DNA from: Ensifer oleiphilus
GTDB taxonomy: Bacteria; Pseudomonadota; Alphaproteobacteria; Rhizobiales; Rhizobiaceae
Direction: 5' to 3'
Assembly (NCBI RefSeq): GCF_013371465.1
Contig: NZ_JABWDU010000010.1
Span: 124,001-188,000, forward strand
DNA: 64,000 nt
Positions within the stretch are counted from its first letter, which is position 1. Every line of letters starts with the position of its first letter. A program made the translations under genes and the position numbers. Below, in pieces: positions 3,796 to 20,012 of the stretch. The notes beneath the pieces are model-generated. The model saw nothing but the letters and a program-made list of their open reading frames with translations, was not told where the DNA came from and made no database searches.

Positions 3796-3846
3796 CAGCC
3801 AGAGCGTTTCCGGCATGAACGGAGGCCGCCCAGAACGCTCTGGCTG
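3796..3846. repeat. Intercistronic palindrome, 13-bp stem
   Basis: The arms CAGCCAGAGCGTT (3796-3808) and AACGCTCTGGCTG (3834-3846) are perfectly complementary around a 25-nt loop. It sits in the 147-bp gap between the two tandem pyruvyl-transferase genes. No T-run follows on either strand, so it is not a standard rho-independent terminator. It resembles the short intergenic mosaic elements (RIME type) common in rhizobia, or an mRNA-processing hairpin. Confidence 0.6.
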
Positions 3847-3903
3847 TCTGTTTGCAAGCACGTCCTGGCGAAAAGACCGGGACGCAGCTGGACCGGAATT
3901 GCT

Positions 3904-5082
3904 CTACTGACCGATGCCGATTTCCCGCAGCGTCGAACGGAACGCCCGTTCGCGATCGGAATATCTGTCGACGAGTTCTGAGGCATTGAGCTTCTTCAGG
4001 TGGCCGGCGACGAAGTCGCTGCGATCGTCGGCGCTGTCGATCTCGTTGATATCGACCGCCGGCAATCCGGTGTAGCCGAGCATTTCGCGCATCCGGTCGT
4101 CCACTGCCACCATCAGGCTCGGGACGCCTGCCTGCATGGCAATGATCGAGCCGTGGAAGCGGCGGCCCAGGTTGAAATCCATCGACGACGCCCAGGCCCT
4201 CCACTGGTTGGTGTCAAAGAAGGTGCGCACCTGGAACGGCTTGCCGAGCCTGTCGGCGCCGGGATAGGCGAGATTGCCGACCATCGTGCCCGAGGCGGTG
4301 TCGTAGACCCGTCCCTCTCCATTGGGCTCGACACTCATGTCGAAATGGAGAAACTCATCCTGAACCACGTATTGCGGGACGCTGTCGCCGCCGGGCAGAG
4401 CCTTGGCATCGAGCACCGTATCCTGGTTGCCGCCGAGGTAGCCGGAAAAAATCGTGCGTGCCTTGGAGACGTCGACCTCGGGCAGTTTCTTGAGCGATTT
4501 TCGCATATTGTCCGGCATGAAGTAGACAGATGGGCAGCCCGTCGGCCGCACGAACTTGAAGCCCTGGTCCTTGAGAAAACCTTCGGTCTCGAAGCCGCGC
4601 GTCAGGAAGAAGTGCTCCCGCTCCTTGAGGATGGCAAGGAGCCGTTTGGTACCCTCCGGCAGATTGTTCTCCAGGTCCTTGCGGTTCTGTTGTCCGATGC
4701 CGAGCATGACGATCGGCATCTTGAGCTTCTCGAGCACGTCCGCTTCAGCGTCGGCCGACAGGCCCTTGCGCAACAGATTGGCGCAGGTGAAGACGCAGAT
4801 ATCGAAGTTGGCGTTGAACTCGTCGAGGCCGACGCCATTCTTGGCGCAATTGTAGAGATGCCAGAACGGCACATGCTTGGCGTGGGGTGAAAGCGCCCTG
4901 AGCGCACCTTCGCCGATGAGGTAGTTGCCGGTGTTGCTGATATTGCGCAGCTCCTGCAGAAATTCCTCTTTCGTCTCCGGTTGTTTCTGGCGCTCCGCAT
5001 AGGAGACGGACAAACCGTGAGCGCCATTCACGAGGCGCGTATAGTGACCGGGAATACCCGTCACGAGAATCCTTGCAGGCAT
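3904..5082 (-). CDS. Polysaccharide pyruvyl transferase family protein
   Basis: A 392-residue pyruvyl-transferase-family protein and tandem paralogue of the gene that follows it. The start MPARILVTGIPGHY is supported by AGAAAGG just upstream; the open frame extends 13 codons further. It shares SNTGNYLIGEGALR, VMLGIGQQ, PTGCPSVYF, FFDTNQWRAW and GRRFHGSIIAMQAGVPSLMVAVDDRM with its neighbour, in the same order. It probably adds pyruvate ketals, or a related modification, to the lipid-linked oligosaccharide in the cytoplasm. The stop of the upstream glycosyltransferase lies 35 bp inside this gene's upstream side (5118), so both belong to the same leftward operon. Confidence 0.8.
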   Translation of the reverse strand: MPARILVTGIPGHYTRLVNGAHGLSVSYAERQKQPETKEEFLQELRNISNTGNYLIGEGALRALSPHAKHVPFWHLYNCAKNGVGLDEFNANFDICVFTCANLLRKGLSADAEADVLEKLKMPIVMLGIGQQNRKDLENNLPEGTKRLLAILKEREHFFLTRGFETEGFLKDQGFKFVRPTGCPSVYFMPDNMRKSLKKLPEVDVSKARTIFSGYLGGNQDTVLDAKALPGGDSVPQYVVQDEFLHFDMSVEPNGEGRVYDTASGTMVGNLAYPGADRLGKPFQVRTFFDTNQWRAWASSMDFNLGRRFHGSIIAMQAGVPSLMVAVDDRMREMLGYTGLPAVDINEIDSADDRSDFVAGHLKKLNASELVDRYSDRERAFRSTLREIGIGQ

Positions 5083-5117
5083 GCAATCGACCTTTCTGCT
5101 TAAAAGAAGGCGTGGGC

Positions 5118-7793
5118 TCAACCAACCGCCCGGATGCCGGCGTCAACCGCCGGGTCCGAGGGAAAGACGGCGGTTCTTGCCTGGGACGAGTTGTCGACCC
5201 AGGTGTCGCACCACGCGAGAAACTGCGAAAACGAGGATGTCCACGAACGACGGGCTGCAGTCTTGATGCAACCTTCAATCAGCGGAGCAAGTTGGTCCGG
5301 GTTGCGAGCAACCTTTTCGATAACGTCGGCCATCGATCGGACGACTTCGGGATCGGCCGCCGCATGGATCAGCACGCCGTCTTCGCCATCGACGATCAGT
5401 TCATCGACGGCGCCAACCGACGTGGCGATCGGCACGCATCCGAGCTGCTGCGCCTCGGCGATGACGAGCGGAGCCCCTTCCCAGCGCGAGGGCATGACGA
5501 GCACATCCGCCCAGGACAGCGCCTTGATGAGTTCCTTGCTCGCAAAGGCCGGCGGGCGGACGTCGACCGAGAGATCCTTCAGTCGCTCCGTCCAGGAGGC
5601 GCTGGTATCGGCGAGAATTTCCCCGCCGATGGCGCGCGCTTCGAACCGAACATTCCTTGCGCGCAGCTCAGACAGGGTCGCGGCCAGCCGATCGATGCCC
5701 TTCTGCCGGTCGAGACGACCCAGATAGAGCACGCGCAACGGCGCGTCGCCGCGCGGCTGTCTCCTAGTTGAGAAGACTTCCGTCTGAACCTTTGGCGGCA
5801 CAGAAAAGCCCGCGCTGTTTGCGACGGCGAAGACCTTTGCGTGTGGCACGCCGAAACTGTGCAGGTAAGTCTTGAGCTGCTCCGAGCAAGTCAGAAACGC
5901 GTCGTAGCAATGCTCGTGGGCGATCGCGGCAAAAGGCTGGCCCGCGGGACGCTTGAACGCCGTGTTGTCGACGACGTGTAGGTAACATGCGGTACGCGTC
6001 CCCTCGGAGCGCAGCCGCGCGATGAGGGGGTGGACGGCCATGACATGGTTGTTGATCACCAGGTCGAAACCTGAAAGCTGGCCCTTCAAAGCTTGCCAGT
6101 CGACCCCGTGCTCTTCAGCGATGAAGTCCTGGCCGAGGAAGGAGCCCGACCCACCCCATGCGGGAACGCCGAGATCCCAGAAGTGGATGTGATCAAAGCT
6201 CTGATCGAACTCGTCGATGACGTCCATCTTCGCGCTGCCGAGTACGAACAGATGCGTCTCGAAACCGGTGCGCTTCAGTTCGCGCGCAACGGCATAAACG
6301 ACCTTCTCGGCGCCGCCGAAAGATGCGTTCGGCACCAGAAGTGCTGCGGTCCGCTTGCCGGCGCTGTGCCCGAGCGGCAGGACGGGCGAGCCACCGACTT
6401 CCCTGCGCAGTTCCCGATAGAGCTCGCCATAGGGAACCAGCCGCGAAGGCCGCCATGTCCAACGCTTGCCCGAGGTGTGACGCAACGGGCTTGAGGCAAT
6501 CGCGTTGATGCAATTGACCATCATCTGCTGCGGCGTGATCAGCGATCGGCGCGGCAGGCTCTTGGGGAAGGGAAAGCGAACCTTCAGCAAAGTCACCGTC
6601 GGCCAGACCTGTTGGTTGCCGATCGATGCGAACCACTCCACCGCATTGTTCAGGATCACGTCCCTGACGAGCGGGGTCGGGACGAAAACGAGGTCGGCGG
6701 ATCCTACATTTTGAGATCCTGCCGGCAGGGCAATCGCCTCGATGCCGCGCTTCGCGCCGTCATTGGCGAGTTGCACGAACAATGCGTTGGTGTTTTCGCT
6801 CAACCGCTCCAGGTGGGCGAGAATGTTCGGAAGCATGCGTGAGCGCAGCAGCAGATCGAAAGCCGAACCACTGCCCGCCACGAGAAAGGGGGGGAAGTGC
6901 ACATTGTCTGGCTCGCCGACATTCGCCCAGAACGCCGGGATGATATCATCAAGGCGAAGCACGGTCGGTGATTTGCTCGGATCGGTAAACAACGAGATCG
7001 ATGCATTTTCCGTGCGGGCGAAGAGATACCGGGGGGCCTCCTCATGCTCGAAATCCACGAGCATCGGCCGTCGGTAGAGCGCTTTGTGGCGTTTTCTGAG
7101 GTAGCTGACCGATGTGGCGCGTTCGCGGTTGGCTTCCTTGAATCGGCTTTCGGCGCGCAAGCGATATTCGAAGACCGTGTCGTGGCACGGGACCCCGACG
7201 AAGCCGTTCTCAATGCAGGACAACCAGAATTCCCAGTCTTCGAAGCCGTTCTGCCGGTCATCGCTGAAGCGCACGCCTGAGCGGAAAACGTCGATGGAGA
7301 TCAGCGATCCCGTGTCGCAAATATTGTCCGTGATGCAATGCGCCAGCCGCGAGTATTGATTGCCGTAATGCGCGCGCCAGGATACGGAGAACGTGTCGAT
7401 ATTGGTATAGACCCAGCCACAGGCAGTATCGATGAGCTTTTGGTAAAGTGTTTCGATCGTGCGCGGAAGAACGCGGTTGTCGGCATCGAGGAAGTACACC
7501 GCCCGAGCCTCAGGCAGTTGCTCGACAATGAAGTCGATGGCGCGATTGCGGGCGCCACCCGGTCCCGCATTGCGGCCGAATATCACGTGAATGAACGGAT
7601 GGGCCGCGGCGTAGAGCAACAGCTGGTCGAATGTCTCGTGGCAGGGGTCTCCATCGACCGAAACCACGATCGCAAGCCGGGATGTGCTGAGGTCGGACGC
7701 CAGTGCAGATTCGATGGCTTCCAGGACAAGCGCCGCATGACCGTAGAGCGGCATCGCGATAGCGATGAGATCAGCCTCCGGGTTACCGGACAT
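5118..7793 (-). CDS. Two-domain glycosyltransferase, GT2 plus GT4
   Basis: An 891-residue fusion. The N-terminal part (about residues 8-250) is a GT2/GT-A domain: IAMPLYGHA, VVSVDGDP, NAGPGGARNRAID and the metal-binding FLDADN. The C-terminal part (about 485-880) is a GT4/GT-B domain beginning ALLVPNASFGGAEKVVYAV and ending with the EX7E-type SRWEGAPLVIAEAQQ near residue 770. The region between them is poorly conserved. The start has GGAGG seven bases upstream and overlaps the preceding gene by 11 bp, indicating translational coupling. Such fusions can add two successive sugars to a repeat unit. It sits second in the leftward block, where Sinorhizobium galactoglucan clusters also have a glycosyltransferase. 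Confidence 0.85.
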   Translation of the reverse strand: MSGNPEADLIAIAMPLYGHAALVLEAIESALASDLSTSRLAIVVSVDGDPCHETFDQLLLYAAAHPFIHVIFGRNAGPGGARNRAIDFIVEQLPEARAVYFLDADNRVLPRTIETLYQKLIDTACGWVYTNIDTFSVSWRAHYGNQYSRLAHCITDNICDTGSLISIDVFRSGVRFSDDRQNGFEDWEFWLSCIENGFVGVPCHDTVFEYRLRAESRFKEANRERATSVSYLRKRHKALYRRPMLVDFEHEEAPRYLFARTENASISLFTDPSKSPTVLRLDDIIPAFWANVGEPDNVHFPPFLVAGSGSAFDLLLRSRMLPNILAHLERLSENTNALFVQLANDGAKRGIEAIALPAGSQNVGSADLVFVPTPLVRDVILNNAVEWFASIGNQQVWPTVTLLKVRFPFPKSLPRRSLITPQQMMVNCINAIASSPLRHTSGKRWTWRPSRLVPYGELYRELRREVGGSPVLPLGHSAGKRTAALLVPNASFGGAEKVVYAVARELKRTGFETHLFVLGSAKMDVIDEFDQSFDHIHFWDLGVPAWGGSGSFLGQDFIAEEHGVDWQALKGQLSGFDLVINNHVMAVHPLIARLRSEGTRTACYLHVVDNTAFKRPAGQPFAAIAHEHCYDAFLTCSEQLKTYLHSFGVPHAKVFAVANSAGFSVPPKVQTEVFSTRRQPRGDAPLRVLYLGRLDRQKGIDRLAATLSELRARNVRFEARAIGGEILADTSASWTERLKDLSVDVRPPAFASKELIKALSWADVLVMPSRWEGAPLVIAEAQQLGCVPIATSVGAVDELIVDGEDGVLIHAAADPEVVRSMADVIEKVARNPDQLAPLIEGCIKTAARRSWTSSFSQFLAWCDTWVDNSSQARTAVFPSDPAVDAGIRAVG

Positions 7794-9264
7794 TCAGGGC
7801 CTCCGTCGATTGCTTGACCAGTCGGAAGCTCGACACCTTGAGCCAGCAGAAATCGACGCTGTCACCCGCCGCCCGGCTGAGGATGATCAGATCCATCGGA
7901 ACACGGATCGCTTCGTCCATCTGCATGGTGATGCTGATGGATTGCTGAGCACCGACCTCTCGCCAACCGCTGAACAGCGTCGAGGGTTTCACCGTGCCCT
8001 TGCGTGCGAGTTCGGCGACCTCCGCGCGGGCGTTCGAACTGGCCGGGCTCAAGAGAAAGCTGACGGCTGCCGGCGCGCCTTTGGGGTGATCGATAATGGC
8101 GCTTGCCGACAACGAGACCGTGCCAGGCTCGATGGCGCGATTGATCGTACCGGCCGAAATGCCGCTTGCCAGGGGATGACAGACGATTGCGTGTTCATGG
8201 TCGAGAAACCGGATGGTCTGGAAATCCGGGACGATTTGAGTGACGGAGACGTCCGCAATCTGGCTGAGCTTGTCCAGCCCAAGCCTGTAATCGACGGTGA
8301 ATTGCCCTTCCAGCAAGCTGGTGGGAGCAATCATGTTCGCGGTGCTGGCAGGCTTGACCCCGGGTAAGCCCGTGAACACCCTGAACGCGAGCGGGCGCAG
8401 GTCGAGGTCAGGATGGGGATGTTCCGAGCGCGCCGAATATCGCTCGCTGGCGATATGATGACCAAGCGAAAGGGCAAGCGCGTCCGAGCCGCTGGCGGAC
8501 ACCCGCAGACGAAGGGTCCTTGCCGCGCCACCGCAGGCACGCGGCAGCGAAAAGAAATTCCAGCCGTTGACCAGGCCGACATAGGGAACGTTCCATTCCG
8601 CAATGCCTTCACCGCTTTCCAGATAGCTCAATGTAACGATCAGCTCGCCACTGCCCTTCGGCAATGCGTGGAGGTGAAGGGAAAAGCCGGCGACGCCGAG
8701 GCTTGAGACGGGCAGAAGTTGCTCAATGAACGCGCTGCTCAACAGCTGTCCCACGCCCTCGTCCTTCGGATCGGCAAAGGGATCGTGCGCAAAGACTTCG
8801 GCAACCGGCTCCCAGTTTCGGGCGTGGAAGGCGTCTTCCAAGAGACGATAGTTTTCAAAGAGCTCTTCACGCTCGCGCCGAAGCATTGCGAGCTCAGACG
8901 TGATCGACGACGTGTATCTGGCCAGACGACCGACGCCGTCTTCGACAAGTGCCCGCAGAAGGGCAGAGCTCTCCGCCACATTGACAGGATCAAGACGCAG
9001 GACCGCCAACTCCGGAACTGTGCGCAAGGCCGAGAGGCGCGCAAGCCCCTTCTTCAGATCCGCCTCTCCCTTTTCGGAAAATGCGACGGCAGCGATCGGA
9101 AAACTATCCTTCAGCATGTCGAAGGAGCTGTCATCAGATTCCAGGTAATCCACGAGATGGGCGATGTTGCTGCCCTGCAGGATCGCCCGATCGCGATCCG
9201 ACGCCAGCAGCAGCTTCTTCAAACCGAGCCGTGGGCCCAAGGCGGATTGTCTTACTTCTTGCAC
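7783..9264 (-). CDS. Hypothetical EPS-locus protein
   Basis: A 493-residue protein without signal peptide or membrane segments. It is the first gene of the leftward EPS operon. The start is GTG with GAGGG six bases upstream. The middle part (about residues 180-290) is rich in beta-strand-like stretches (GFSLHLHALPKGSGELIVTLSYL), suggesting a jelly-roll or carbohydrate-binding module. A hydrophilic Arg/Glu-rich helix (ELAMLRREREELFENYRLL) lies near residue 130. I recall a rhizobial domain of unknown function (DUF6212) with this kind of context but cannot confirm it. By position it matches the first gene (expA1/wgaA) of the S. meliloti galactoglucan A block. Confidence 0.7.
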   Translation of the reverse strand: MQEVRQSALGPRLGLKKLLLASDRDRAILQGSNIAHLVDYLESDDSSFDMLKDSFPIAAVAFSEKGEADLKKGLARLSALRTVPELAVLRLDPVNVAESSALLRALVEDGVGRLARYTSSITSELAMLRREREELFENYRLLEDAFHARNWEPVAEVFAHDPFADPKDEGVGQLLSSAFIEQLLPVSSLGVAGFSLHLHALPKGSGELIVTLSYLESGEGIAEWNVPYVGLVNGWNFFSLPRACGGAARTLRLRVSASGSDALALSLGHHIASERYSARSEHPHPDLDLRPLAFRVFTGLPGVKPASTANMIAPTSLLEGQFTVDYRLGLDKLSQIADVSVTQIVPDFQTIRFLDHEHAIVCHPLASGISAGTINRAIEPGTVSLSASAIIDHPKGAPAAVSFLLSPASSNARAEVAELARKGTVKPSTLFSGWREVGAQQSISITMQMDEAIRVPMDLIILSRAAGDSVDFCWLKVSSFRLVKQSTEALNVR

Positions 9265-9420
9265 GTAACGCCCTCAGAAGAAACGATAACGCATATCGGT
9301 GGAGTTCCGAATGGGCGACATCTATACTATCGAAACCATTCATCACACTGATTACGTAGCAGTGAATTTTGCGATGCACAACGACAAAATACATGACTTC
9401 CGCAGGAATAAACTTCACAT

Positions 9421-9441
9421 ATACTTCAATATTTGAAGTAT
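9421..9441. promoter_or_regulatory. Probable WggR operator before the leftward EPS block
   Basis: A perfect palindrome, ATACTTCAA-TAT-TTGAAGTAT, with 9-bp arms and a 3-bp spacer. It lies in the 192-bp gap between the GT4 gene (stop at 9457) and the first gene of the leftward block, 157 bp upstream of that gene's start. The core TACTTCAA-N3-TTGAAGTA is identical to the palindrome in front of wggR. This makes it a strong candidate target of the MarR-type regulator. The rest of the gap (9265-9420) is AT-rich and presumably holds the promoter. Confidence 0.8.
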
Positions 9442-9456
9442 TGACCGGTATTGCCG

Positions 9457-10683
9457 TTACGCCGCCGAACGACCTGTCATCGCCGCCATCAGCTCTCGCT
9501 GGCGCAGCAGGCAGTCCTCCAGGCGGAAGCGCCGCTCGACGGTTCTTCGCGCGGCCGCCCTCATGCTGATGGAGGCCTGTGGATTGCTCAGCGCTCCAAG
9601 CACTGCCTCGGCGAGGGCGTCGGCATCGAAGAAGGGCACAAGGATACCGTTGTGACCCGTACGGATCACTTCGCGAACCGGAGGCGTGTCGGAGCCAATG
9701 ATCAAGGCGCCGCAGGCCATGGCTTCCAGCACAGACCAGGAAAGCACGAAGGGATAGGTCATGTAGACATGTGCCGCCGAGACCTGGAAAAGCTGACGAA
9801 GGATGTGATGCGGAACAACGCCCGGAAAGATGATGTTGTCCGCCGGCACGTCGACGGAGGCGAGCAGATGGGATTTCCATGAGCCGCCGCCAGGAGGAGG
9901 AGGTCCGTAGCTGGTGCCCTCCCCTCCGACAAAGACGAAAATCGTATCGGGACGTTTGCGCACGATTTGAGCGGCAGCCTGCAGCGCCTGGGGAAAGCCA
10001 CGATAAGGTTCGAGATCGCGGGCGACAAAAGTGACGACCGGCGGATCGTTGGCCTTGAGCACGCGGCCGTCTGGGAGCCTGACCGAAGCCGCAGGGTTGG
10101 GACGAAACAGCGCCGTATCGATACCCTCGTGGCAGACGGCAATGCGCTCACGCGTATCGGCGGGATAGAGGCTTTTTTGCCATTCGGTCGGGCTGATGCC
10201 TCCATCCATTGATTCCAGCGACAGCAACTGTGCGACGTTGCGCAGCCGCAATCGCTTGCGCTCTTCGAGATCAGGCTGATCGTCGGCCGCAAAACCGATG
10301 TCGGCGCCGTGTGATCGATAGAAGAATTCGCAATATCCCAGGGCCGGAACGTGAGGCAGCGCATCCTTGACGAACATCATGCTGCCCCAACCGATGTGAC
10401 CGACGACAATGTCGGGCGTCATGTCCTGCCGCGTCATTGCGTCGAGCGTTTCGGCGACCCGGTGTCCGATCCGGGTGTGGTGATCCGGCACAGCCATGTG
10501 TCGAGCAATCGCTGCGGAAGCCCTAGGGCCAGGCTCGGCCCGGTGGCGAATGACGCGAACGGATGGGATCTTCTGATCCACGGTTTCGGTGATCAGGCTG
10601 ACGCTGTTGCCCGACCGAACCAGGTCAGCCGCCAACGCGGCGAACTGGCCGAAGCCGCGCCGATGAACAAATGCCACATGCAT
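9457..10683 (-). CDS. GT4 glycosyltransferase next to wggR
   Basis: A 408-residue GT-B glycosyltransferase. The N-terminal domain starts MHVAFVHRRGFGQFAAL. The C-terminal GT4 domain carries VTFVARDLEPYRGFPQALQAA, a FVFVGGEGTSYG strand-loop and the EX7E-like SWSVLEAMACGALIIGSDTPPVREVI near residue 335. A proline/glycine-rich loop (GPPPPGGGSW) near residue 260 is unusual. The start ATG is preceded only by a weak AGGTAGCGG element. It lies 48 bp downstream of the regulator gene on the same strand, the place of expC/wgcA in S. meliloti, so co-expression with the regulator is likely. It presumably adds a sugar to the EPS repeat unit. Confidence 0.85.
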   Translation of the reverse strand: MHVAFVHRRGFGQFAALAADLVRSGNSVSLITETVDQKIPSVRVIRHRAEPGPRASAAIARHMAVPDHHTRIGHRVAETLDAMTRQDMTPDIVVGHIGWGSMMFVKDALPHVPALGYCEFFYRSHGADIGFAADDQPDLEERKRLRLRNVAQLLSLESMDGGISPTEWQKSLYPADTRERIAVCHEGIDTALFRPNPAASVRLPDGRVLKANDPPVVTFVARDLEPYRGFPQALQAAAQIVRKRPDTIFVFVGGEGTSYGPPPPGGGSWKSHLLASVDVPADNIIFPGVVPHHILRQLFQVSAAHVYMTYPFVLSWSVLEAMACGALIIGSDTPPVREVIRTGHNGILVPFFDADALAEAVLGALSNPQASISMRAAARRTVERRFRLEDCLLRQRELMAAMTGRSAA

Positions 10684-10731
10684 GCTATCTAATCCGCTAC
10701 CTGAATGACGTGCACATTGGGTTCCGCCCGG

Positions 10732-11304
10732 TCACATGTCGTACCGTGACGCGCTGCCCCAGACGAGTTCGAGTTGATGCAGGGTCTGGAAGGCGGTCTC
10801 CAGGTTCTGACGATCCTGATGGCCGCGATTGAGTGCCCGCTCATAGGCCATCGCCGCGTCGCGCAAGTTCGCCCGAAGCATCCGGCCCTTTTCCGTCAGT
10901 TTGATGCGCGCCGAACGCTTGTCGCGCTGGGAGGCCACCCGGTCGATGTAGTCTCCATCTGCCAGCTGCTTCAGGTAGTACGACACGTTCGAGCCGACAT
11001 AGTGCCCGCGATCCAGCAACTCGGCGACCGAAAGCTCGGCATCGCCGATCGCCAGCAGGACCATGGCCTGAGCCGGTCCGATGTCGTCGACACGCAGCTT
11101 GGTCAGCTCGGCGCGAACCAAGCCGGAAAATCGCCTGCTCACTCGTTCCATCAAGCGCGCAAGCTCGAAATAGGTCAGCTGTCGGCAATCGCTCGCCGCG
11201 TCCGCTTGATCTTGGGCTCCTACCGCCGCCGATGCCTGGTCCTCCTGCTGGAGCAACGACACATCTTTGATCCCCGTGGACGGATAGAGTACTCTTTCAT
11301 TCAT
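10732..11304 (-). CDS. wggR: MarR-family EPS regulator, WggR/ExpG-like
   Basis: A winged-helix regulator. The start is placed at the second ATG, MNERVLYPS, because GGAGAG sits five bases before it; the first ATG at 11316 has no ribosome binding site. That gives 190 residues, or 194 from the upstream ATG. The MarR core runs from about residue 45 (LARLMERVSRRFSGLVRAEL) through the recognition helix and wing (LDRGHYVGSNVSYYLKQLADGDYIDRVASQRDKRS). In S. meliloti WggR (ExpG) activates galactoglucan genes; here it lies between blocks of the same type and an operator palindrome overlaps its own upstream region. Synteny and family together make this assignment good but not proven. Confidence 0.82.
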   Translation of the reverse strand: MNERVLYPSTGIKDVSLLQQEDQASAAVGAQDQADAASDCRQLTYFELARLMERVSRRFSGLVRAELTKLRVDDIGPAQAMVLLAIGDAELSVAELLDRGHYVGSNVSYYLKQLADGDYIDRVASQRDKRSARIKLTEKGRMLRANLRDAAMAYERALNRGHQDRQNLETAFQTLHQLELVWGSASRYDM

Positions 11305-11321
11305 CCAACTCTCCATTTCAA

Positions 11322-11348
11322 AATTTACTTCAAATCTTGAAGTAAATT
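11322..11348. promoter_or_regulatory. Probable WggR operator in the wggR-wgdA divergent region
   Basis: A perfect palindrome with 12-bp arms, AATTTACTTCAA (11322-11333) and TTGAAGTAAATT (11337-11348), around ATC. It begins 18 bases upstream of the preferred wggR start, so it could serve autoregulation. It ends about 150 bp upstream of the exporter gene on the other strand. It has the same core as the site at 9421-9441. Confidence 0.85.
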
Positions 11349-11442
11349 CAACTACTAAAACCCCCTCCCTGTGACCTTAAACTTGCATTACCTCTTACTT
11401 TCGTGCCACACATATCGAAGCAATACTATGCTTCACCCCAAA

Positions 11443-11475
11443 TTAAAGCCAGACGTCCTCCACGGATGGCTTTAA
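11443..11475 (+). repeat. Leader hairpin before the exporter gene
   Basis: The arms TTAAAGCCA (11443-11451) and TGGCTTTAA (11467-11475) are perfectly complementary around a 15-nt loop, in the 5' leader just ahead of the ABC exporter gene. It may fold in the mRNA near the ribosome binding site. It could also be chance in an AT-rich stretch. Confidence 0.4.
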
Positions 11476-11497
11476 CGTTAACTTCAGGCAACCGCCC

Positions 11498-13270
11498 ATG
11501 CGTGATACTGTTCGGAACGAGACGATAAGCAACGGTCAAATTTTAGGGGTTATGCGCCAGGACGAGATTATCAATCCAAGATTGCTAATATTGCAAGCCA
11601 AGCGTGTGTTTCTTTCCGTGTCACTTTACGCCGCATTGCTGAGTGTCTGCATAAGCCTGCTTCAGCTCACGATACCGCTGTTCATGCTGCAGATTCATGA
11701 CAGGGTTCTCAACAGTCAGAGCTTCGATACGCTGACGATGCTGACCCTGCTCGCGATCAGCGCGTTGGTCGTCTATGGTGTCCTCGATCTGATCCGGGCC
11801 CTTGCATTTCAAGCAATGGGCAGCGCCATCGTGCGAAGGCTGAACGCCCCTGTTCTGGCATCGGCGGTCCAAGCCTCCGTGAATCAAGGGCTTTCGCGCG
11901 CGGCACAGTCCCTTCGCGACCTGTCGGAATTGCGTGGTTTTCTCACATCGTCAGCTGTGGTCGCGCCGCTCGACGCCGCCTGGTCGCCGATTTTTCTGGG
12001 GGCGCTGTTCCTGCTTCATCCACTGTTCGGGCTCGTTGGGGTTGTGTCAGTGGCGGTGCTCATATGTTGCGGGCTGGTTAATGACATGCTAACGCGCCAA
12101 CTGACCAAGGAAGCCAACCAGGCGAATGTCGAAGCGGTTTCCAAGATCGCCGGCTCGCTCAGGCATGCCGAGGCGATCGAAGCGATGGGCATGCTGCCCG
12201 CACTTGCCAGGCGCTGGCGAACGCTGCAAATCCACGCGCTGGGTGCGCTCGAAGCCGGCGGAAGCAGAAGCAAGGCGATGACGTCGCTGACGCGCAGCCT
12301 GCGGTACTCGATCCAGGTCATCACGCTTGCAACAGGTGCGCTGCTGGTGCTTGATCAGGCGATCACCCCTGGCGCGATGATGGCTTCGAGCATCCTCGTC
12401 GGTCGGCTGCTCATACCCTTCGACACGATTATCGAAAACTGGCGCCAATGGGTGCTCGCCGTGGCCGGCTGGCGACGGATCGAGGCGGCGATCGGCGAAG
12501 ACCTGGCGATCCGCCAGACGACGCCGACGCCCCATTCGGCCGGCGACATGATTGTGGATAAACTCGTCTACGCCGTCCCGGGCGTCGAGGTGCCGATCAT
12601 CAAGGGCGTCTCCTTCTCGCTTTCCCCCGGCGAGGTGCTGGGCGTGGTCGGCCCGTCGGCCGCCGGAAAGTCGACGCTTGCCCGGCTGCTGGTCGGCATC
12701 TTAAGGCCGACGTCGGGGGGTGTCTTTCTCGACGGCCACAATACCTATCTGTGGGAGCGCGGGTCTTTCGGCGAGAAGGTCGGCTATCTGCCGCAATCGG
12801 TGTCTCTGCTGGAGGGCACGATCCGCGAAAACATCGCCAGAATGGACGATGGCGATCCTCACAAGGTCATCGAAGCGGCACGACTGGCGGAAGTCCACGA
12901 GATGATCGGTCGCCTGCCCCTCGGTTACGACACACCGGTCGGCGATGGTCACCTCACACTTTCCGGTGGACAGAGACAGCGCATTGCACTGGCGCGCTGC
13001 CTCTATAATCGCCCGCGTCTCGTCGTTCTCGACGAGCCGAATGCTAATCTCGATTCGCTGGGCGAGCGTGCTTTGGTTCGGGCGATCCAGCGCATGCGCG
13101 ACCAGGGCGCCATCGTCATCATGATCGCCCATCGGCCATCGATCATGCAGGTCGCCGACAAGCTGCTCGTCCTTGAAAATGGCCGTATCAGTCAGTTCGG
13201 ACCGCGAACGGACATCTTGACCGCCGTGCCAGCGCCTGGCGAAACCTTGCGCGAGGTTGCTTCCGCATGA
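11498..13270 (+). CDS. wgdA: Type I secretion ABC exporter (permease/ATPase)
   Basis: A 590-residue half-transporter of the HlyB/PrtD type. The N-terminal half has membrane helices, starting with VFLSVSLYAALLSVCISLLQLTIPLFMLQI near residue 30. The C-terminal ATPase has a Walker A GPSAAGKST (about residue 388), the signature LSGGQRQRIALARC (about 487) and a Walker B VVLDEPNANLD (about 508). It exports substrates with C-terminal signals together with the membrane fusion protein encoded next (overlap ATGA) and a TolC-like channel not present here. The RTX protein encoded after them is the obvious cargo. In S. meliloti the matching genes are expD1/expD2. An alternative start at 11552 has AGGGG close by. 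Confidence 0.87.
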   Translation: MRDTVRNETISNGQILGVMRQDEIINPRLLILQAKRVFLSVSLYAALLSVCISLLQLTIPLFMLQIHDRVLNSQSFDTLTMLTLLAISALVVYGVLDLIRALAFQAMGSAIVRRLNAPVLASAVQASVNQGLSRAAQSLRDLSELRGFLTSSAVVAPLDAAWSPIFLGALFLLHPLFGLVGVVSVAVLICCGLVNDMLTRQLTKEANQANVEAVSKIAGSLRHAEAIEAMGMLPALARRWRTLQIHALGALEAGGSRSKAMTSLTRSLRYSIQVITLATGALLVLDQAITPGAMMASSILVGRLLIPFDTIIENWRQWVLAVAGWRRIEAAIGEDLAIRQTTPTPHSAGDMIVDKLVYAVPGVEVPIIKGVSFSLSPGEVLGVVGPSAAGKSTLARLLVGILRPTSGGVFLDGHNTYLWERGSFGEKVGYLPQSVSLLEGTIRENIARMDDGDPHKVIEAARLAEVHEMIGRLPLGYDTPVGDGHLTLSGGQRQRIALARCLYNRPRLVVLDEPNANLDSLGERALVRAIQRMRDQGAIVIMIAHRPSIMQVADKLLVLENGRISQFGPRTDILTAVPAPGETLREVASA

Positions 13271-14667
13271 CCGAGAAAAACACGCTTCCGCTCCGTTCGC
13301 AGCCATCCGGGCTCGATCTCCGCTCTCCGGTAAAGTTAACCACCCGACCGGCGCCGACCCCATCCGAGGTCGACGAGGCGTATGCCGATCGCGCGCTTCG
13401 CCGCCTGATGGTTGCGGGGTTTGCAACGATTTTCGTATCCTTCGGCGGCTTCTTCACCTGGGCGGTATCGACAGAACTAAGCAGCGCGACGGTTGCCAAC
13501 GGCAGCGTCATCGTCGATTCCAAGCGCAAGACGATCAGTCACTTCGAAGGCGGCGTCATGGGACGCCTGATGGTTCAGGAGGGCGAACAGGTCGCCGTGG
13601 GACAGCCGCTCATCTTGCTTGAAGACACCCGGGCGCGCTCCAACCTGAATGCACTCAACAGCCGTCGTATCGGCCTGATTGCAAGGCTCGCCAGGCTCAA
13701 GGCAGAGCAGGACGGCGCGGCAACGATCACCTTCCCGCAGAGTTTCGGCGATGCAGGCGGGGTCGCCGTGGATGAAGCGATCAAGGCGGAGAATGTCTTC
13801 TTCGACAAGCGGCACGAGGCCAAGTCCGGACGTGTCGACGTGCAGGCGAAAACGATCGAGGAATATGGCGAACAGACAAAATCGCTGTTCACCCAGGTCG
13901 AAGCGACCGATCGTCAGATCGCCCTCATCACTGAACAGCGCACGGCGATCGCCACGCTGGTCGAGAAAGGCTTCGTGCAACGCGCCAAGCTCATAGAGGT
14001 CGACACGCGGCTGAGCGAGCTCGCCCGAACACGCGGCGAACTGGCAGGCGACAAGGCGCGGGCGGAGAAGGCAAAGGCCGGCGCCCAGCTTGCCCTCATT
14101 GGTATCGATAGTGAGTTTCAATCGACGATTGCCGGAGAGATCACGACGGCGCGCATCGACCTGACGGACGTCGAAGAACAGATCATCGCTGCAAAGGATG
14201 TGCTGCGGCGCATGGAGATCCGCTCTCCGCAAGCGGGCGTGGTCAGCAATATCTGGCTGCGCACCCCTGGAAGCGCTGTTACGCCCGGCCAGCCGCTCCT
14301 GGAAATTGTCCCGGAAGACGAACCACTGGTCGTCGAATTGCGGGTGAACCCGCGGGACATCGACAGCATAGCGGTGGGCTCGCCGACGCAGATCAGGCTG
14401 ACCGCCTACAATCAGCGCTCACGCCTGCCGTTCAATGGCGAGGTGACCTATGTTGCCGCGGACCAGTCGGTCGACGAGAAGTCGGGCGTCTCCTATTTCA
14501 CCGCGCGCGCCAAGATCGATGCGACATCCCTTGCCGCAGATCCCGATGTACGACTTTATCCTGGCATGCCGGCGGAGGTGCTGATCGTGCACAAGGCGCG
14601 CCGTGCCATCGACTACCTCGTCTCTCCGCTGACAGAGAGCTTCAATCGCGCCTTCAGGGAAGATTGA
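13267..14667 (+). CDS. wgdB: HlyD-family membrane fusion protein
   Basis: A 466-residue periplasmic adaptor. A cytoplasmic N-terminus of about 45 residues is followed by one membrane helix (VAGFATIFVSFGGFFTWAVSTEL). Next come a lipoyl-like segment (VANGSVIVDSKRKTISHFEGGVMGRLMV), a long alpha-hairpin region (about 120-290) and a C-terminal beta-barrel (TPGQPLLEIVPEDEPLVVELRV). It bridges the ABC exporter to an outer-membrane channel. Its start codon overlaps the exporter stop, so the two are translationally coupled. Confidence 0.88.
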   Translation: MTEKNTLPLRSQPSGLDLRSPVKLTTRPAPTPSEVDEAYADRALRRLMVAGFATIFVSFGGFFTWAVSTELSSATVANGSVIVDSKRKTISHFEGGVMGRLMVQEGEQVAVGQPLILLEDTRARSNLNALNSRRIGLIARLARLKAEQDGAATITFPQSFGDAGGVAVDEAIKAENVFFDKRHEAKSGRVDVQAKTIEEYGEQTKSLFTQVEATDRQIALITEQRTAIATLVEKGFVQRAKLIEVDTRLSELARTRGELAGDKARAEKAKAGAQLALIGIDSEFQSTIAGEITTARIDLTDVEEQIIAAKDVLRRMEIRSPQAGVVSNIWLRTPGSAVTPGQPLLEIVPEDEPLVVELRVNPRDIDSIAVGSPTQIRLTAYNQRSRLPFNGEVTYVAADQSVDEKSGVSYFTARAKIDATSLAADPDVRLYPGMPAEVLIVHKARRAIDYLVSPLTESFNRAFRED

Positions 14668-14700
14668 ATTACGCCCGCGACGACGAAGGATGCGGTAAAA

Positions 14701-14719
14701 TGCTACAAATTTTGAACTA
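14701..14719. promoter_or_regulatory. Degenerate WggR-like operator before wgeA
   Basis: TGCTACAA-ATT-TTGAACTA matches the palindrome core found at 9421 and 11322 in 13 of 16 half-site positions with the same 3-bp spacer. It lies about 215 bp upstream of the RTX gene, in a 267-bp AT-rich gap that otherwise shows no gene. As in S. meliloti, where the expE1 promoter is regulated, this would be the third control point of the cluster. It is weaker than the other two sites. Confidence 0.6.
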
Positions 14720-14934: not shown

Positions 14935-15594
14935 ATGGCCACACTAGAAGGCGGCGCATACGACGACGCGCTGTTCGGCTCTCGCTTCAACGATTTCATC
15001 CACGCCCGAGCGGGTGATGATTTCGTGAGCGGCGGCAACGGACATGACATCATTTTCGGTGACGAAGGTGACGACCAGCTATTCGGCGGAAACGGCAACG
15101 ATTCGCTGTTTGGCGGCGAAGGCGACGACGTTCTCTATGGCGAGAACGGCAACGACATCCTGACCGGCGGTTGGGGTGACGATCTCCTGTTCGGCGGTAA
15201 CGGCAGCGACATTCTGCTCGGCGGCCAGGGCAACGACTTCCTGTCCGGCGGCAAAGGCAGCGACACGCTGTTCGGCGGTGATGGCAACGATATCCTCAAC
15301 GGCGGCGCTGGTGATGACCTCCTGGTCGGTGGAGCCGGCAACGACGTCTTCGTCTTCGACGGCGGCGGCGGCAACGACGTCATTCTCGACTTCACACCCG
15401 GCGAAGATCTGCTGCAGATCTCCAAGGGCATCAACGGTCTCGACATCACCTCGCCTGACGACCTCGCCTCGCGCATCACCCAGGTCGGCGGCAATGTCAT
15501 CATCGACCTCGGCCATGGCGATTCACTGACCCTGGTCAATGTCGACATCGACGACATTCACGCAAATCCCGAGAACTATTTCACGGTTCACTAA
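14935..15594 (+). CDS. wgeA: Secreted RTX calcium-binding protein, WgeA/ExpE1-like
   Basis: A 219-residue protein made almost entirely of RTX nonapeptides (GGxGxDxLx type) from about residue 27 to 140, for example GGNGNDSLFGGEGDDVLYG. A non-repeat C-terminal part of about 80 residues should carry the type I secretion signal. There is no N-terminal signal peptide. The start MATLEGGAYDD has AGGAGAGG upstream; the frame is open 42 codons earlier without a comparable site. Such repeats bind Ca2+ and fold outside the cell. S. meliloti ExpE1 is an RTX-type secreted protein of the galactoglucan cluster. It is probably exported by the upstream ABC/HlyD pair. Confidence 0.88.
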   Translation: MATLEGGAYDDALFGSRFNDFIHARAGDDFVSGGNGHDIIFGDEGDDQLFGGNGNDSLFGGEGDDVLYGENGNDILTGGWGDDLLFGGNGSDILLGGQGNDFLSGGKGSDTLFGGDGNDILNGGAGDDLLVGGAGNDVFVFDGGGGNDVILDFTPGEDLLQISKGINGLDITSPDDLASRITQVGGNVIIDLGHGDSLTLVNVDIDDIHANPENYFTVH

Positions 15595-15655
15595 GCGTGG
15601 ACAAGGCGTGCCCTGCATTCCTCCCGCAGGGCGCGCACTCCAAGAGGGATCGAAT

Positions 15656-17917
15656 TTGCCGTTCAGCGACATCAAGCAGCCGAGTGCCGATTACCCGCGC
15701 GCAAAGACGTTCCGTCTGGGATCGGACCTGGCGGTTCTGATCTGGGATCTGCCGCCGGTATCGGTATCGCCAACCCAGACGCGGCCGGTGCTGACGATGG
15801 CAAAACCGTCCGTCCCGCTTGTCAGCGTCACGCTGTCACTCGCCGACGGACAGCAGCGAACGCTATGGGCCATGCGCACGGCAAGGGTGCCGATGCCGGC
15901 CGTCATTGCCACCGAACGCGGCGATAGCGTGGCTCCTGTCAACATCGAGCCGGCAAGCAACCTGCCTCCCCTCGACATGGAGCAGCTGTTTCTGGAGCTT
16001 GCACCGGAAGCGCGCATCCGGTTTCTCAACATCTTGCTGACGACCTGGCGAAGCGCATTCAAAGTTGCCGGAGATCCCTATTTCTGTCTGATCGTCGAAG
16101 ACGCTCTCAATGCGTTGGCACCATTGCCTCGGCCGGCGCGCATAACCTGCGAACTTGGCCGCGGACGGTACTTGATCGAGACGACGATCAATGTGGAGTT
16201 TGACGACAAGCTTTCAATCTACGTCGCCGCTTCGGAAAGTGTCAGCCAGTTGCGACCCAAGGCCATCGTCCGGCGCCGCACGCGGGGAGCCTGGCAGACC
16301 TGCCACTTCATCGCCGAGATGCCGAACCTCAGCCCCCCTCTTAAGCTCGTGCTGTTCAGCAAGAACGGCGCCGCCATCAGGCAGCTTTCGGAGCGTGAAG
16401 CGCAATGTCCGAGCCTGACGCGTTGGTGGGCAGACAACCGCGAGGCAGTCGAACTACGCGAGCTGCTCGTTCAGCACCTTGCAACCTGGCCGAACGGCGG
16501 ACCGGCCACCGCGATCGACCTGCAGATCCGCGCGCCCCTCAAAGAACGTCACGTCCAGAGAGCGGCACAACAGCCTTCCGGGCAAGTCGATCTGGCGCTC
16601 GCACTTTCGGACAGCCTGCTCGTCGGCGGCTGGTATCACGATCCGTCCTCCATGCTCGCCGGCATCGACTATCTGCAGGCGGATGGGAAAGCCGTGCCGC
16701 TCGACGGTAACATCTACGAATTTCCCGGATGGGCGCAGACGCAGGCAGACAAGTCGAAGACCGATGTGACAGGCTTCGTCGCCCGCCTCCCGCTTGATCA
16801 GCCGCTCGGCCCTCTGCTGCAGCCGCGGTTTCAGATGCGGTTCGCATCAGGGGCGGTGAAGCCCCTGATCCCGCCGCCGCAGCCCTTCGAACCGGCACTG
16901 CAGCGAAACCAGATCCTGCGCGCAGTGCCGCCGCAGCACGCGATTGACGATGCCTTTCGCACCATCCTCGCGCCGGCGCTCCGGGAAGTGGAGCAGCGTC
17001 TCGGAAAGACGGTCGAGGTGAAGCGGACGCGAGACTACGGCCTGCCGCAGCAGGCGCCGCTCGTTTCCATCGTCATCCCGCTGTACAAGGTCCTCGATTT
17101 TCTCCGTTTCCAGTTGTCGGGCATGGCTACCGATCCCTGGCTGATGGAAAATGCCGAACTGGTCTTCGTGCTCGATTCCCCGGAGATCCAGGACGAAACC
17201 GAGCATCTGCTCGGCGGGCTGCACCTCTTGCATGGCTTTCCCATGCGCCTCGTGGTGATGAACCGGAACGGCGGTTACGCGCGAGCCTGCAACACCGGCG
17301 CGCGCATGGCGCGCGGCTCCATGCTTGTCATGCTCAATTCCGATGTCGTCCCTTGCGATCCAGGCTGGGTGCAGACCCTGATAGCGCCGATCATGAGCGG
17401 AAATTTCGGCGCCGTCGGCCCAAGGCTGATCTTCGAAGACAGGTCTCTGCAGCATGCAGGCCTCTATTTCGGCCGCGACCAGCGCGGGATCTGGCTGAAC
17501 CACCACTTCCATAAGGGCATGCCCAGCAACTACGTTCCGGCACAACTGGCTCGAACCGTTCCGGGCGTGACCGGTGCCTGCCTCGTCACATCGAGGGACA
17601 TCTACGACAGCGTCGGCGGCTTCACCGAGGACTATATCATTGGCGACTATGAAGACAGCGACCTGTGCCTGAAGATCCGCCGCGCCGGCTTCGAGATCGG
17701 CTACGAGCCGTCGGCGTGTCTCTATCATTTCGAGCGCCAGTCGATCCGGCGCAGCCAGGACTATATGCGCGGCGTCGCCAGCCAATACAACTCCTGGCTC
17801 CACACCCAGCGCTGGGACGACGACATCGCCGCGCTGATGGCGCGCGATAATCGTTCGCCAGGCTCACCCCAGTCCGCATCCCCCGATGACCGCACACTTG
17901 AATGGACGAATGCATGA
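15656..17917 (+). CDS. wgeB: Large GT2 glycosyltransferase, WgeB/ExpE2-like
   Basis: A 753-residue protein. The start is taken as TTG with AGAGGGA upstream, because the earlier in-frame ATG at 15539 lies inside wgeA. The first 430 residues have no recognised domain. The C-terminal third is a GT2 domain: PLVSIVIPLYKVLDFLRF near residue 465, NGGYARACNTGARMARG, the DxD-equivalent NSDVVP near 562, and the acceptor-site EDYIIGDYEDSDLCLKIRRAG near 660. The long N-terminal part is shared by position and size with the second gene of the S. meliloti expE operon. It probably polymerises or transfers a sugar of the EPS backbone. Confidence 0.8.
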   Translation: MPFSDIKQPSADYPRAKTFRLGSDLAVLIWDLPPVSVSPTQTRPVLTMAKPSVPLVSVTLSLADGQQRTLWAMRTARVPMPAVIATERGDSVAPVNIEPASNLPPLDMEQLFLELAPEARIRFLNILLTTWRSAFKVAGDPYFCLIVEDALNALAPLPRPARITCELGRGRYLIETTINVEFDDKLSIYVAASESVSQLRPKAIVRRRTRGAWQTCHFIAEMPNLSPPLKLVLFSKNGAAIRQLSEREAQCPSLTRWWADNREAVELRELLVQHLATWPNGGPATAIDLQIRAPLKERHVQRAAQQPSGQVDLALALSDSLLVGGWYHDPSSMLAGIDYLQADGKAVPLDGNIYEFPGWAQTQADKSKTDVTGFVARLPLDQPLGPLLQPRFQMRFASGAVKPLIPPPQPFEPALQRNQILRAVPPQHAIDDAFRTILAPALREVEQRLGKTVEVKRTRDYGLPQQAPLVSIVIPLYKVLDFLRFQLSGMATDPWLMENAELVFVLDSPEIQDETEHLLGGLHLLHGFPMRLVVMNRNGGYARACNTGARMARGSMLVMLNSDVVPCDPGWVQTLIAPIMSGNFGAVGPRLIFEDRSLQHAGLYFGRDQRGIWLNHHFHKGMPSNYVPAQLARTVPGVTGACLVTSRDIYDSVGGFTEDYIIGDYEDSDLCLKIRRAGFEIGYEPSACLYHFERQSIRRSQDYMRGVASQYNSWLHTQRWDDDIAALMARDNRSPGSPQSASPDDRTLEWTNA

Positions 17918-18753
17918 TCGATGCCCTGCCGCGCGATGAAGTCGGTACGCCCCCGCCCCTTGACGACGCGCATCTTTCCTGGCTGACCGACAGCATTTCG
18001 CGCAACCGGTTCCTTCCGCAGCCGGATGCCAACAGCATTTTCGTCGGTGACGGCGATTTCCGGGCGATCGGCGCCGAGTTTCTCGGGCATTTTGTCCGGA
18101 TGGGTGGCTTGCGGCCTCATCATCGCGTCCTCGATATCGGCTGCGGCATCGGCCGTATGGCCGTGCCGCTCACCCAGTATCTCGATGGCGAACGCGGCCG
18201 CTATGACGGCCTCGATCCTGTGGAGGGCGGTATCCGCTGGTGCAAGTCGTCTGTGACGCCCACCTACCCCAACTTCAGCTTCCAGCGCCTCGACATCGCC
18301 CATGACCTCTACAACCCCGCTGGGAAAATTAAAGGGCGTGAGCTGAAACTGCCGTTTGCCGACGGTCAGTTCGATTTCATCATCATGACTTCGGTCGTCA
18401 CGCACCTGCCGGCAGACGAGGTCATGGCCTATCTGGCTGAAATCTTCCGGGTGCTGGCGCAGGGCGGCCGGTTGTTCATGACCGCGTTCATCGTCGACGA
18501 CGTTGCCAACCGAAATGCCACGGGCCGGCGCGATCCGCGCCTTGCCTTTGCGCGCGCCGGCCAGGGCCCCTGCTGGTTCGTGCCGGATCAGCCGCCGCTG
18601 GCAGCGGTCGGCTTCGACGACGGATTTCTGGAGGGCGCTCTCGCTCGCACCGGTCTCTCGGTCGTGCTCAAATCCTTCGGCCATTGGCGTGCACCGGGCG
18701 GTACCCACTATCAGGACATTCTCGTGGGCGAGCGTCGACGGAGCCGCGTATGA
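17914..18753 (+). CDS. SAM-dependent methyltransferase
   Basis: A 279-residue class I methyltransferase. Motif I is VLDIGCGIGRMAVPL near residue 72, followed by the acidic YDGLDPVEGG and a post-motif PFADGQFDFIIMTSVVTHLP. The start overlaps the upstream stop as ATGA, as at the following junctions; an ATG 12 bases earlier is the alternative. It may methylate a sugar or cap the glycan, but a polysaccharide substrate is inferred only from its place in the operon (third gene of the wge-like block). Confidence 0.8.
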   Translation: MIDALPRDEVGTPPPLDDAHLSWLTDSISRNRFLPQPDANSIFVGDGDFRAIGAEFLGHFVRMGGLRPHHRVLDIGCGIGRMAVPLTQYLDGERGRYDGLDPVEGGIRWCKSSVTPTYPNFSFQRLDIAHDLYNPAGKIKGRELKLPFADGQFDFIIMTSVVTHLPADEVMAYLAEIFRVLAQGGRLFMTAFIVDDVANRNATGRRDPRLAFARAGQGPCWFVPDQPPLAAVGFDDGFLEGALARTGLSVVLKSFGHWRAPGGTHYQDILVGERRRSRV

Positions 18754-20003
18754 GCAAACGCATTCTCGTGGTGGCGCACAATCATCCGGCGCTCCATCCC
18801 GGCGGCACGGAAGTGTTCGCGCACGACCTCTTCCGCGCCTACCAGCGCGCAGGACACGAGGCGCTGTTCCTGGGTGCGGTCAACCAGGTTCATCGCGAGG
18901 CAAGACCGGGCACGAGTTTCCAGGCCATTGGGCCAACGGGCGACGAAATCCTGCTGTGGGCCGGTCATTTCGATCGCTTTTTCATGAGCCAGATCGATCT
19001 CTACGGTTTCGTGCCCGATCTCACCGAATTGCTGCGCGAGTTCCAACCGGATGTGGTGCATCTCCACCATATCCTGCTGATGGGCGCCGAGTTTCCACAT
19101 ATCGTGCGCAGGACGCTGCCGGCATGCAAGATCGTCATGACGCTGCATGACTACTACCCCATCTGCCATCACGACGGCCTGATGGTGCGTACCGACAAGC
19201 GCGAACTCTGCCATGGCTCGAGCCCGGACCGATGCCATGCCTGTTTCAAGGACATCAAGCCGGATCGCTTCGCCCTGCGCGAACAACATCTCAAGGCGCT
19301 TTTGAACACGATTGACAGCTTTGTCGCACCGAGCGAGTTCCTGAAGCGTCGATATGTCGAATGGGGAATTGCCGAGAACCGTATCTCGGTCATCGCCAAT
19401 GGTTTGCCGTCACGAGCATTCGAGACCAGCAAAGACAAATCCAAGGCCGGCCGGCCCACCTTCGGCTACTTCGGCAACCTCAACCCCTGGAAGGGAACCA
19501 AAGTGCTTTTGGAAGCGGCGCGTCAGCTGATCGGAGATGGCGTCGACTTCGAGCTGCGCGTCCATGGCGGCGCTCCGTTTCAGAGCCCCGAATTCATCGC
19601 CGACATCGAGCGCCTGTTCTCCGAAACGGCACCTCAGGTGCAGCGACGCGGATCTTATCGGCGGGAGGATGTTGCCGCCCTTATCGGCGCAGTTGACTGC
19701 ACCGTCGTGCCCTCGATCTGGTGGGAGAATGCGCCGCTCGTGATCCAGGAAGCACAAGCGCAGGGCCGTCCGGTGATCGCCAGTAACATCGGCGGAATGG
19801 CCGAGCTTGTACGGAACGGCGTCAATGGCCTGACGGTGGCGCCAAACGATCCGCGCCAGCTTGCAGCGGCCATGCGCCAGATCATCGAAAAGCCGACGCT
19901 TCTGCGCCAACTGGCAGGCCGAGCCGTTCGACCTGACGACATCGACACGACCGCTGGGCGTTACCTCGCTCTTTTCAATCTCCAGCAGGTTCAGGCCGCA
20001 TAA
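18750..20003 (+). CDS. GT4 glycosyltransferase
   Basis: A 417-residue GT-B enzyme. The N-terminal domain begins ILVVAHNHPALHPGGTEVFAHDLFR, with the donor-side GGTE loop. VVHLHHILLMG and MTLHDYYPICHHDGLM follow. The C-terminal part has GYFGNLNPWKGTKVLLEAA, WENAPLVIQEAQAQGRPVIASNIGGMAELV (EX7E) and then a short tail. A cysteine cluster (ELCHGSSPDRCHACF) near residue 155 resembles those in related rhizobial transferases. It is clearly paralogous to the GT4 encoded at 22981-24303. It is coupled to the methyltransferase gene by an ATGA overlap. Confidence 0.87.
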   Translation: MSKRILVVAHNHPALHPGGTEVFAHDLFRAYQRAGHEALFLGAVNQVHREARPGTSFQAIGPTGDEILLWAGHFDRFFMSQIDLYGFVPDLTELLREFQPDVVHLHHILLMGAEFPHIVRRTLPACKIVMTLHDYYPICHHDGLMVRTDKRELCHGSSPDRCHACFKDIKPDRFALREQHLKALLNTIDSFVAPSEFLKRRYVEWGIAENRISVIANGLPSRAFETSKDKSKAGRPTFGYFGNLNPWKGTKVLLEAARQLIGDGVDFELRVHGGAPFQSPEFIADIERLFSETAPQVQRRGSYRREDVAALIGAVDCTVVPSIWWENAPLVIQEAQAQGRPVIASNIGGMAELVRNGVNGLTVAPNDPRQLAAAMRQIIEKPTLLRQLAGRAVRPDDIDTTAGRYLALFNLQQVQAA

Positions 20004-20012
20004 AGAGGATCC

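Follow-up and report, generated by a model that had tools for sequence, protein, structure and literature searches.

The stretch of Ensifer oleiphilus DNA analysed here (64,000 nucleotides of contig NZ_JABWDU010000010.1, positions 124,001 to 188,000; hereafter the window) carries what, judged by its predicted proteins, is an Ensifer adhaerens-group copy of the exp/wg galactoglucan (exopolysaccharide II, EPS II) cluster. These proteins follow those of the Sinorhizobium meliloti 1021 exp/wg cluster in the same order and at 44–82% identity, with the wga genes, wgcA and wggR reading leftward and wgdA, wgdB, wgeA and the other wge genes reading rightward (Table 1; the names wga, wgc, wgd and wge are taken from orthology to S. 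meliloti and from published papers). Three palindromes accompany the wga, wggR/wgd and wge promoter regions, and we conclude that they are very probably operators of the MarR-family regulator WggR (ExpG), which would define a local regulon activating wga, wgd and wge. This regulon is the orthologue of one already described; in outline it is essentially known and largely expected.

To locate these sites, we searched for the motif TACTTCAA-N3-TTGAAGTA and counted mismatches over both half-sites. A preliminary description of this DNA had placed perfect palindromes at 9421–9441 and 11322–11348 and a degenerate third copy at 14701–14719 before wgeA, and all three are present, the first two without a mismatch; the wider coordinates given for them reflect extra paired bases (at site 1, one further A/T pair that yields 9-bp arms). 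The sites had also been set about 150–216 bp from the structural genes and right at the regulator's own start, which agrees with measured distances of 157 bp from the wga palindrome to the GTG of the wgaA frame (9264; annotated 24 bases shorter in E. canadensis), 153 bp from the wggR/wgd palindrome to wgdA (11498) and 215 bp from the wge palindrome to the wgeA start codon (14935). Toward the regulator, the wggR/wgd palindrome ends 21 bp from the wggR start, if this is 11304, and 11 bp from a GGAGAG ribosome-binding sequence. Position 11304 is the start annotated in S. meliloti ABS7 and in E. canadensis, and the alternative ATG at 11316 runs into the GGAGAG that precedes 11304.

Table 1 Features of the exp/wg cluster in the window; percentages refer to the S. 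meliloti locus and function names are predictions
Feature	Position	Strand	Remarks
Last recognised wga gene	1470-2762	-	53%; without Pfam match
wga operon polysaccharide pyruvyl transferase	2584-3861	-	80%; Pfam
wga operon polysaccharide pyruvyl transferase	3904-5121	-	82%; Pfam
wga operon glycosyltransferase	5118-7793	-	78%; Pfam
wgaA (expA1)-type DUF6212 protein, first gene of leftward block	7783-9264	-	66%; PF19717
PhaR (AniA)-type box, wga leader	9364-9384	-	core YGCRNYGCR intact; 2 mismatches to the full 21-base consensus (PMC12542648)
Probable WggR palindrome, wga operon (site 1)	9422-9440	.	TACTTCAATATTTGAAGTA, 0 mismatches
wgcA (expC)-type glycosyltransferase, downstream of wggR	9457-10683	-	76%; Pfam GT4
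wggR (expG), MarR-family regulator, 190 aa	10732-11304	-	frame opens 11316, likely start 11304
Probable WggR palindrome between wggR and wgdA (site 2)	11326-11344	.	0 mismatches; 12-bp arms 11322-11348
wgdA (expD1), type I secretion ABC transporter	11498-13270	+	76%; PF00005/PF00664
wgdB (expD2), HlyD-type adaptor	13267-14667	+	65%; PF13437
Probable degenerate WggR palindrome before wgeA (site 3)	14701-14719	.	3 mismatches
wgeA (expE1), RTX calcium-binding protein	14935-15594	+	80%; PF00353
Rest of wge operon: glycosyltransferases, methyltransferase, two Pfam-less proteins	15539-24303	+	44-72%

It is extremely improbable that the palindromes are chance inverted repeats of A+T-rich gaps, although the intergenic G+C content of 0.42–0.43 would favor such repeats, because dinucleotide shuffles (a composition-matched control, made in the window only) produced a perfect site in 0/5000 cases for the wga leader and again in 0/5000 for the wggR–wgdA region, and because collinear matches recur in 50 of 51 loci. 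For sites 1 and 2, which far exceed the chance expectation, the shuffles and the collinear conservation exclude this explanation. Shuffles of the wgdB–wgeA region gave a site with ≤3 mismatches in 8/5000 cases (~0.002); site 3 alone is modestly beyond chance, and its position and conservation add weight. When the whole window was shuffled (n = 100), matches at ≤3 mismatches averaged 0.02, and three matches occurred in none of the shuffles. A scan of the genome (6.76 Mb, 32 contigs) for copies of equal quality, proposed in the preliminary description as a check, returned two places at ≤1 mismatch, sites 1 and 2 of the window, and none outside the cluster; the motif of a widespread regulator was thereby ruled out. 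At ≤3 mismatches six places were found versus five for a reversed control pattern, which is the level of noise, and the three of them that lie outside the cluster all overlap open frames that run for at least 150 codons from stop to stop. Of these three, the one in L004 overlaps the final codons of a 425-codon frame.

To assess conservation, 51 loci were compared: 48 from one scan, together with S. meliloti 1021, E. canadensis and the window. The scan patterns were built from this WggR, so that distant copies are under-sampled, and one locus (L081, discussed below) was excluded from the per-site counts of n = 50 and from the column counts. A collinear match at all three places was found at ≤5 mismatches in 50/51 loci and at ≤3 in 29/51. 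Site by site, the wggR palindrome has ≤2 mismatches in 50/51 loci, the wga palindrome lies collinear at ≤3 in 46/51, and the wge palindrome does so at ≤3 in 32/51 and at ≤5 in 50/51. Random 500-bp stretches (n = 1587, mostly coding) never fell below 4 mismatches, with 6 stretches at 4 and 27 at 5; because random DNA reaches these values, single wge or wga matches at 4 or 5 mismatches are weak evidence each and rest on their position.

The three sites differ in quality in a consistent manner. Their half-sites carry 1.92 (wggR), 1.61 (wga) and 1.42 (wge) bits per column, values somewhat inflated by alignment on the best motif match (a separate 17-locus alignment was made without such anchoring), and their flanks carry 0.40–0.73 bits overall (wggR, 0.72–0.73; wge, 0.40 and 0.71). 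Mismatches at the wggR site are equal to or fewer than those at wga in 50/50 loci (18 ties) and fewer than those at wge in 50/50, and the most mismatches fall at wge, alone or tied with wga, in 42/50 loci and at wga in the other 8/50. This ranking, with wggR best and wge mostly worst, is a new detail, and the gradient suggests a testable order of promoter response. In two Sinorhizobium loci (L061 and L085), about 20 extra bases stand between the palindrome and wggR and contain a half-site-like TTGAAGTA or TTGGAAGTA, which the window does not have.

The motif also tracks the regulator. Among 61 genomes, 17 carry a WggR of >60% identity, and a motif with ≤1 mismatch is present in 16 of these 17 compared with 1 of the 44 others; furthermore, all 26 such places in the 16 genomes lie within ~2 kb of wggR. 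The wggR product of the window matches Pfam MarR_2 (PF12802) at 47.9 bits (cut-off 27) and is 69.9% identical to S. meliloti 1021 WggR over 194 aa. Conservation is concentrated in the winged-helix region (54/58 residues identical to S. meliloti, 16/17 in the presumed recognition-helix stretch) and is low at the N-terminus (9 of the first 40 residues; alignment of 50 rows including the window, with L083 out and L081 in). Judged by WggR, near relatives that bear a name include Ensifer adhaerens Lc04 (99%), Sinorhizobium sp. A49 (98%) and E. canadensis pT173d (96%).

What is known of this regulon comes from S. meliloti. In that species, ExpG reportedly recognizes a short palindrome in front of each of expA1, expG/expD1 and expE1, and after mutation of the palindromes its binding was no longer recognizable (PMC1403797; ExpG work is also cited in PMC3937344). 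WggR has binding sites in front of wgaA, wggR/wgdA and wgeA, which it activates together with PhoB at low phosphate; MucR is a repressor, and WggR itself slightly inhibits the distal promoter (PMC3233446). WggR represses when PhoB does not act, and ExpR requires WggR if MucR is present (PMC3233446, PMC10458429). The regulator also activates its own operon (PMC3418255), again with PhoB (PMC3418255, PMC3233446). The preliminary description had assigned the palindromes to these same three promoter regions, and this is borne out by orthologous genes in the same order with sites at the same promoters.

PhoB, MucR and ExpR act on the same S. meliloti promoters, and an overlap of WggR sites with PHO sites is described (PMC1403797, PMC3233446), so that the palindromes might instead be sites of one of these factors; we consider this very improbable, since the motif follows WggR across the 61 genomes and since palindrome mutation abolished recognizable ExpG binding in S. 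meliloti (PMC1403797). These factors are more plausibly partners. The genome carries PhoB (340 bits, cut-off 296) and one MucR (170 bits, cut-off 25). It also encodes a LuxR protein that shares 93% identity with one from S. meliloti 4H41, and a LuxR gene adjoins an acyl-homoserine lactone (AHL) synthase gene (a LuxR–LuxI pair, the LuxR side being 82% alike). We tentatively take these LuxR/LuxI genes to be ExpR and SinRI, partly on the basis of gene positions.

By analogy with S. meliloti, we propose that a WggR dimer would bind TACTTCAA-N3-TTGAAGTA in each of the three promoter regions (wga, wggR/wgd and wge) and, from upstream positions, would contribute to turning on the structural operons wga, wgd and wge, most probably together with PhoB (low phosphate) and ExpR (high density) and against MucR; the single site in the wggR–wgdA gap would serve both the wgd operon and wggR. 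The positions are consistent with such a role. For wgaA and wgeA, a table in PMC12542648 gives how far the PhaR boxes lie from the start codon and from the start site; arithmetic on these values and the locus coordinates sets the S. meliloti palindrome centers upstream of the start sites by ~136 bp at wga and ~213 bp at wge, which fits help from upstream and not occlusion. The main text of a separate S. meliloti start-site paper (PMC3616915) is without wggR, wgaA or wgeA. The step from distance to activation taken in the preliminary description thus fits the S. meliloti start sites; read from the window sequence alone it is suggestive. Likewise, its scheme of activation and autoregulation from one motif has support in S. 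meliloti but is incomplete, omitting repression by WggR as well as PhoB, MucR and ExpR. Its overall interpretation as a MarR-controlled EPS regulon is supported.

Several observations weigh against WggR operators at all three promoters. L081, on the second contig of Ensifer sp. USDA 6670, has no palindromes and no wgdA or wgcA match; the same genome also carries L068. Among the genomes that encode WggR, G013 lacks any site at ≤1 mismatch and has a 2-mismatch site at wggR (L067), and one genome without a WggR of >60% identity (G046) has a single 1-mismatch place. A scan of the three regions yielded no convincing PHO box, the best match having 5–6 mismatches to the consensus used, and the same holds in S. 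meliloti; the overlap reported for that species was thus not reproduced in either. Two further points concern the weakest site and the regulator's own site, and each admits an alternative. Regarding L081 itself, its wggR-like gene is partial (71% over 78% of its length).

The wge site has 3 mismatches, a count at noise level genome-wide, and 18/50 loci, relatives and window together, show 4 or 5 mismatches at wge. The copy may hence have decayed and ceased to work in the window's clade of seven, in which it has 2 to 4 mismatches, leaving WggR to control just wga and wggR/wgd, and its place at the bottom of the quality ranking would accord with this. We nevertheless judge such decay unlikely: the S. 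meliloti 1021 wgeA site has 3 mismatches as well and expE1 is a reported target (PMC1403797), and each position of TTGAA in the gene-proximal half is retained in 49–50 of 50 loci, as against the 0.40 and 0.71 bits of the wge flanks.

At wggR, a palindrome just 21 bp before the start codon occupies a position more usual for repression. WggR might therefore have a dual role, activating wga, wgd and wge while the site at its own gene serves as a roadblock or promoter-occluding operator, with wggR negatively autoregulated. The short gaps to the start codon and to GGAGAG (40 bp to wggR in S. meliloti), a wggR site never worse than the other two in 50/50 loci, and the repressing effect reported when PhoB does not act (PMC10458429, PMC3233446) all speak for this, and the S. 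meliloti papers, in which WggR with PhoB activates wggR too (PMC3418255, PMC3233446), speak against it; on balance we hold the dual role to be a serious contender that falls somewhat short of an even chance. The autoregulation foreseen in the preliminary description accordingly stands as far as the site at the wggR start is concerned, and the motif gives no sign of whether it activates or represses.

A sigma-70-like pair, TTGTGC-N17-TACTAT, picked by eye from the 17-locus alignment, lies 52–57 bp past the wgd palindrome in 49/50 loci. At wga the same hexamer overlaps the core of a PhaR-type box, and for this reason we propose no promoter at that operon; across the 50 loci, no sigma-70-like pair with a fixed position was found at wge. 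In the window itself, TCGTGC-N17-TACTAT at 11401–11429 is a candidate wgd promoter.

The PhaR (AniA)-type box of the wga leader is a second conserved feature of these promoters. Since random 190-bp stretches also reach ≤2 mismatches to the 21-base PhaR consensus (158/1733), the argument lies in the conserved core and not in the window match alone. The core YGCRNYGCR (background density, 0.78 per kb) occurs 30–48 bp past the wga palindrome in 48/50 loci (the misses being L061 and L079) and 130–150 bp past the wge palindrome in 43/50, these distance ranges having been chosen after the alignment was inspected; within 150 bp past the wgd palindrome it was found in 0/50 loci. The seven misses at wge coincide with the window plus the six loci most closely related to it. 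In the 17-locus alignment the S. meliloti PhaR sites fall in strongly conserved blocks, and the genome carries a PhaR gene (147 bits, cut-off 109). At the S. meliloti wgaA and wgeA genes, PhaR sites with weak binding are reported, and deletion of phaR slightly raised wgaA promoter activity and left the wgeA promoter unchanged in a mucR strain (PMC12542648). A PhaR function of the conserved block is suggested by its fit to the consensus, and the block may be kept for other reasons, for example as a promoter element. The core and its apparent loss at wge in this clade are a new detail, and its conservation would offer an evolutionary argument that the weak S. meliloti PhaR sites are functional. 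Going further, WggR palindrome and polyhydroxybutyrate (PHB)-sensing PhaR box at wga and wge, not at wgd, could form a two-box code that ties slime to carbon storage in cluster-bearing Rhizobiaceae, with the window's clade (whose cluster groups with Rhizobium and not with other members of its own genus) having dropped the wge box and uncoupled wge from PHB. We regard this code as possible but rather doubtful; the unchanged activity of the wgeA promoter after phaR deletion in the mucR strain (PMC12542648) counts against it.

Beyond the regulatory sites, a Pfam search of the cluster frames gave no match for three (1470–2762, 20013–20741 and 20738–22984); the counterpart of the first is annotated as a glycoside hydrolase in E. 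canadensis. The history of the cluster may differ from that of its hosts. In a tree of wgdA (49 rows including the window, coverage >80%, with L083 and the short loci L014–L022 out), the seven-member clade of the window groups with Rhizobium and Neorhizobium (split support 100/99), and other Ensifer (among them E. sesbaniae and strains L18 and ST2) group with Sinorhizobium, while genomes of both groupings are listed under the window's genus (G002 with L065, G011 with L063 and G013 with L067). This conflict between wgdA tree and genus suggests exchange of the cluster between lineages, which we offer as a lead and as a new addition to the account of the cluster. Published distributions are patchy as well: a table in PMC4053727 lists the cluster in S. 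meliloti, S. medicae and S. terangae and not in S. fredii or S. saheli, and R. favelukesii LPU83 has just expD1, expD2 and expE1 in synteny (PMC7902896). Our literature search found no paper pairing wggR with Neorhizobium.

Ultimately, a switch studied in depth in S. meliloti can be followed into the Ensifer adhaerens group and, at the level of sequence, into Rhizobium and Neorhizobium, where activator sites could then be predicted. In the Rhizobium and Neorhizobium copies the three sites are collinear and wgdA groups with the window's clade, but the wga site is often TACTTTGA/TTAAAGTA-like and the wge site often AACTTCAA/TTGAAACA-like. The closest known system, the ExpG/WggR regulon on pSymB of S. 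meliloti, shares with the window the regulator, the gene order wga-wgcA-wggR / wgd-wge and three palindromes at the same promoters, those of strain 1021 having 0, 1 and 3 mismatches with the wgeA copy degenerate in both species. It differs in a wga site with 1 mismatch (perfect in the window) and in a palindrome–wggR gap of 40 bp instead of 21 bp. Outside the regulatory regions, rfbC, rfbB and rfbD follow the wga genes in S. meliloti ABS7, where the window has an FGGY kinase frame; the three are not listed in the E. canadensis stretch, the plasmid gene tables used being incomplete. The window in turn has an extra pyruvyl transferase and nucleotidyl transferase after the wge genes (24328–26435), with distant matches (22–27%) in the S. 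meliloti locus, and the polymer may therefore be decorated differently. Compared with the PhaR/PHB regulation of S. meliloti EPS genes, the window is alike in having a core that fits the consensus in the wga leader, where, as at wge, PhaR binding in S. meliloti was weak. It differs in lacking the PhaR-type core at wge, as does the rest of its clade.

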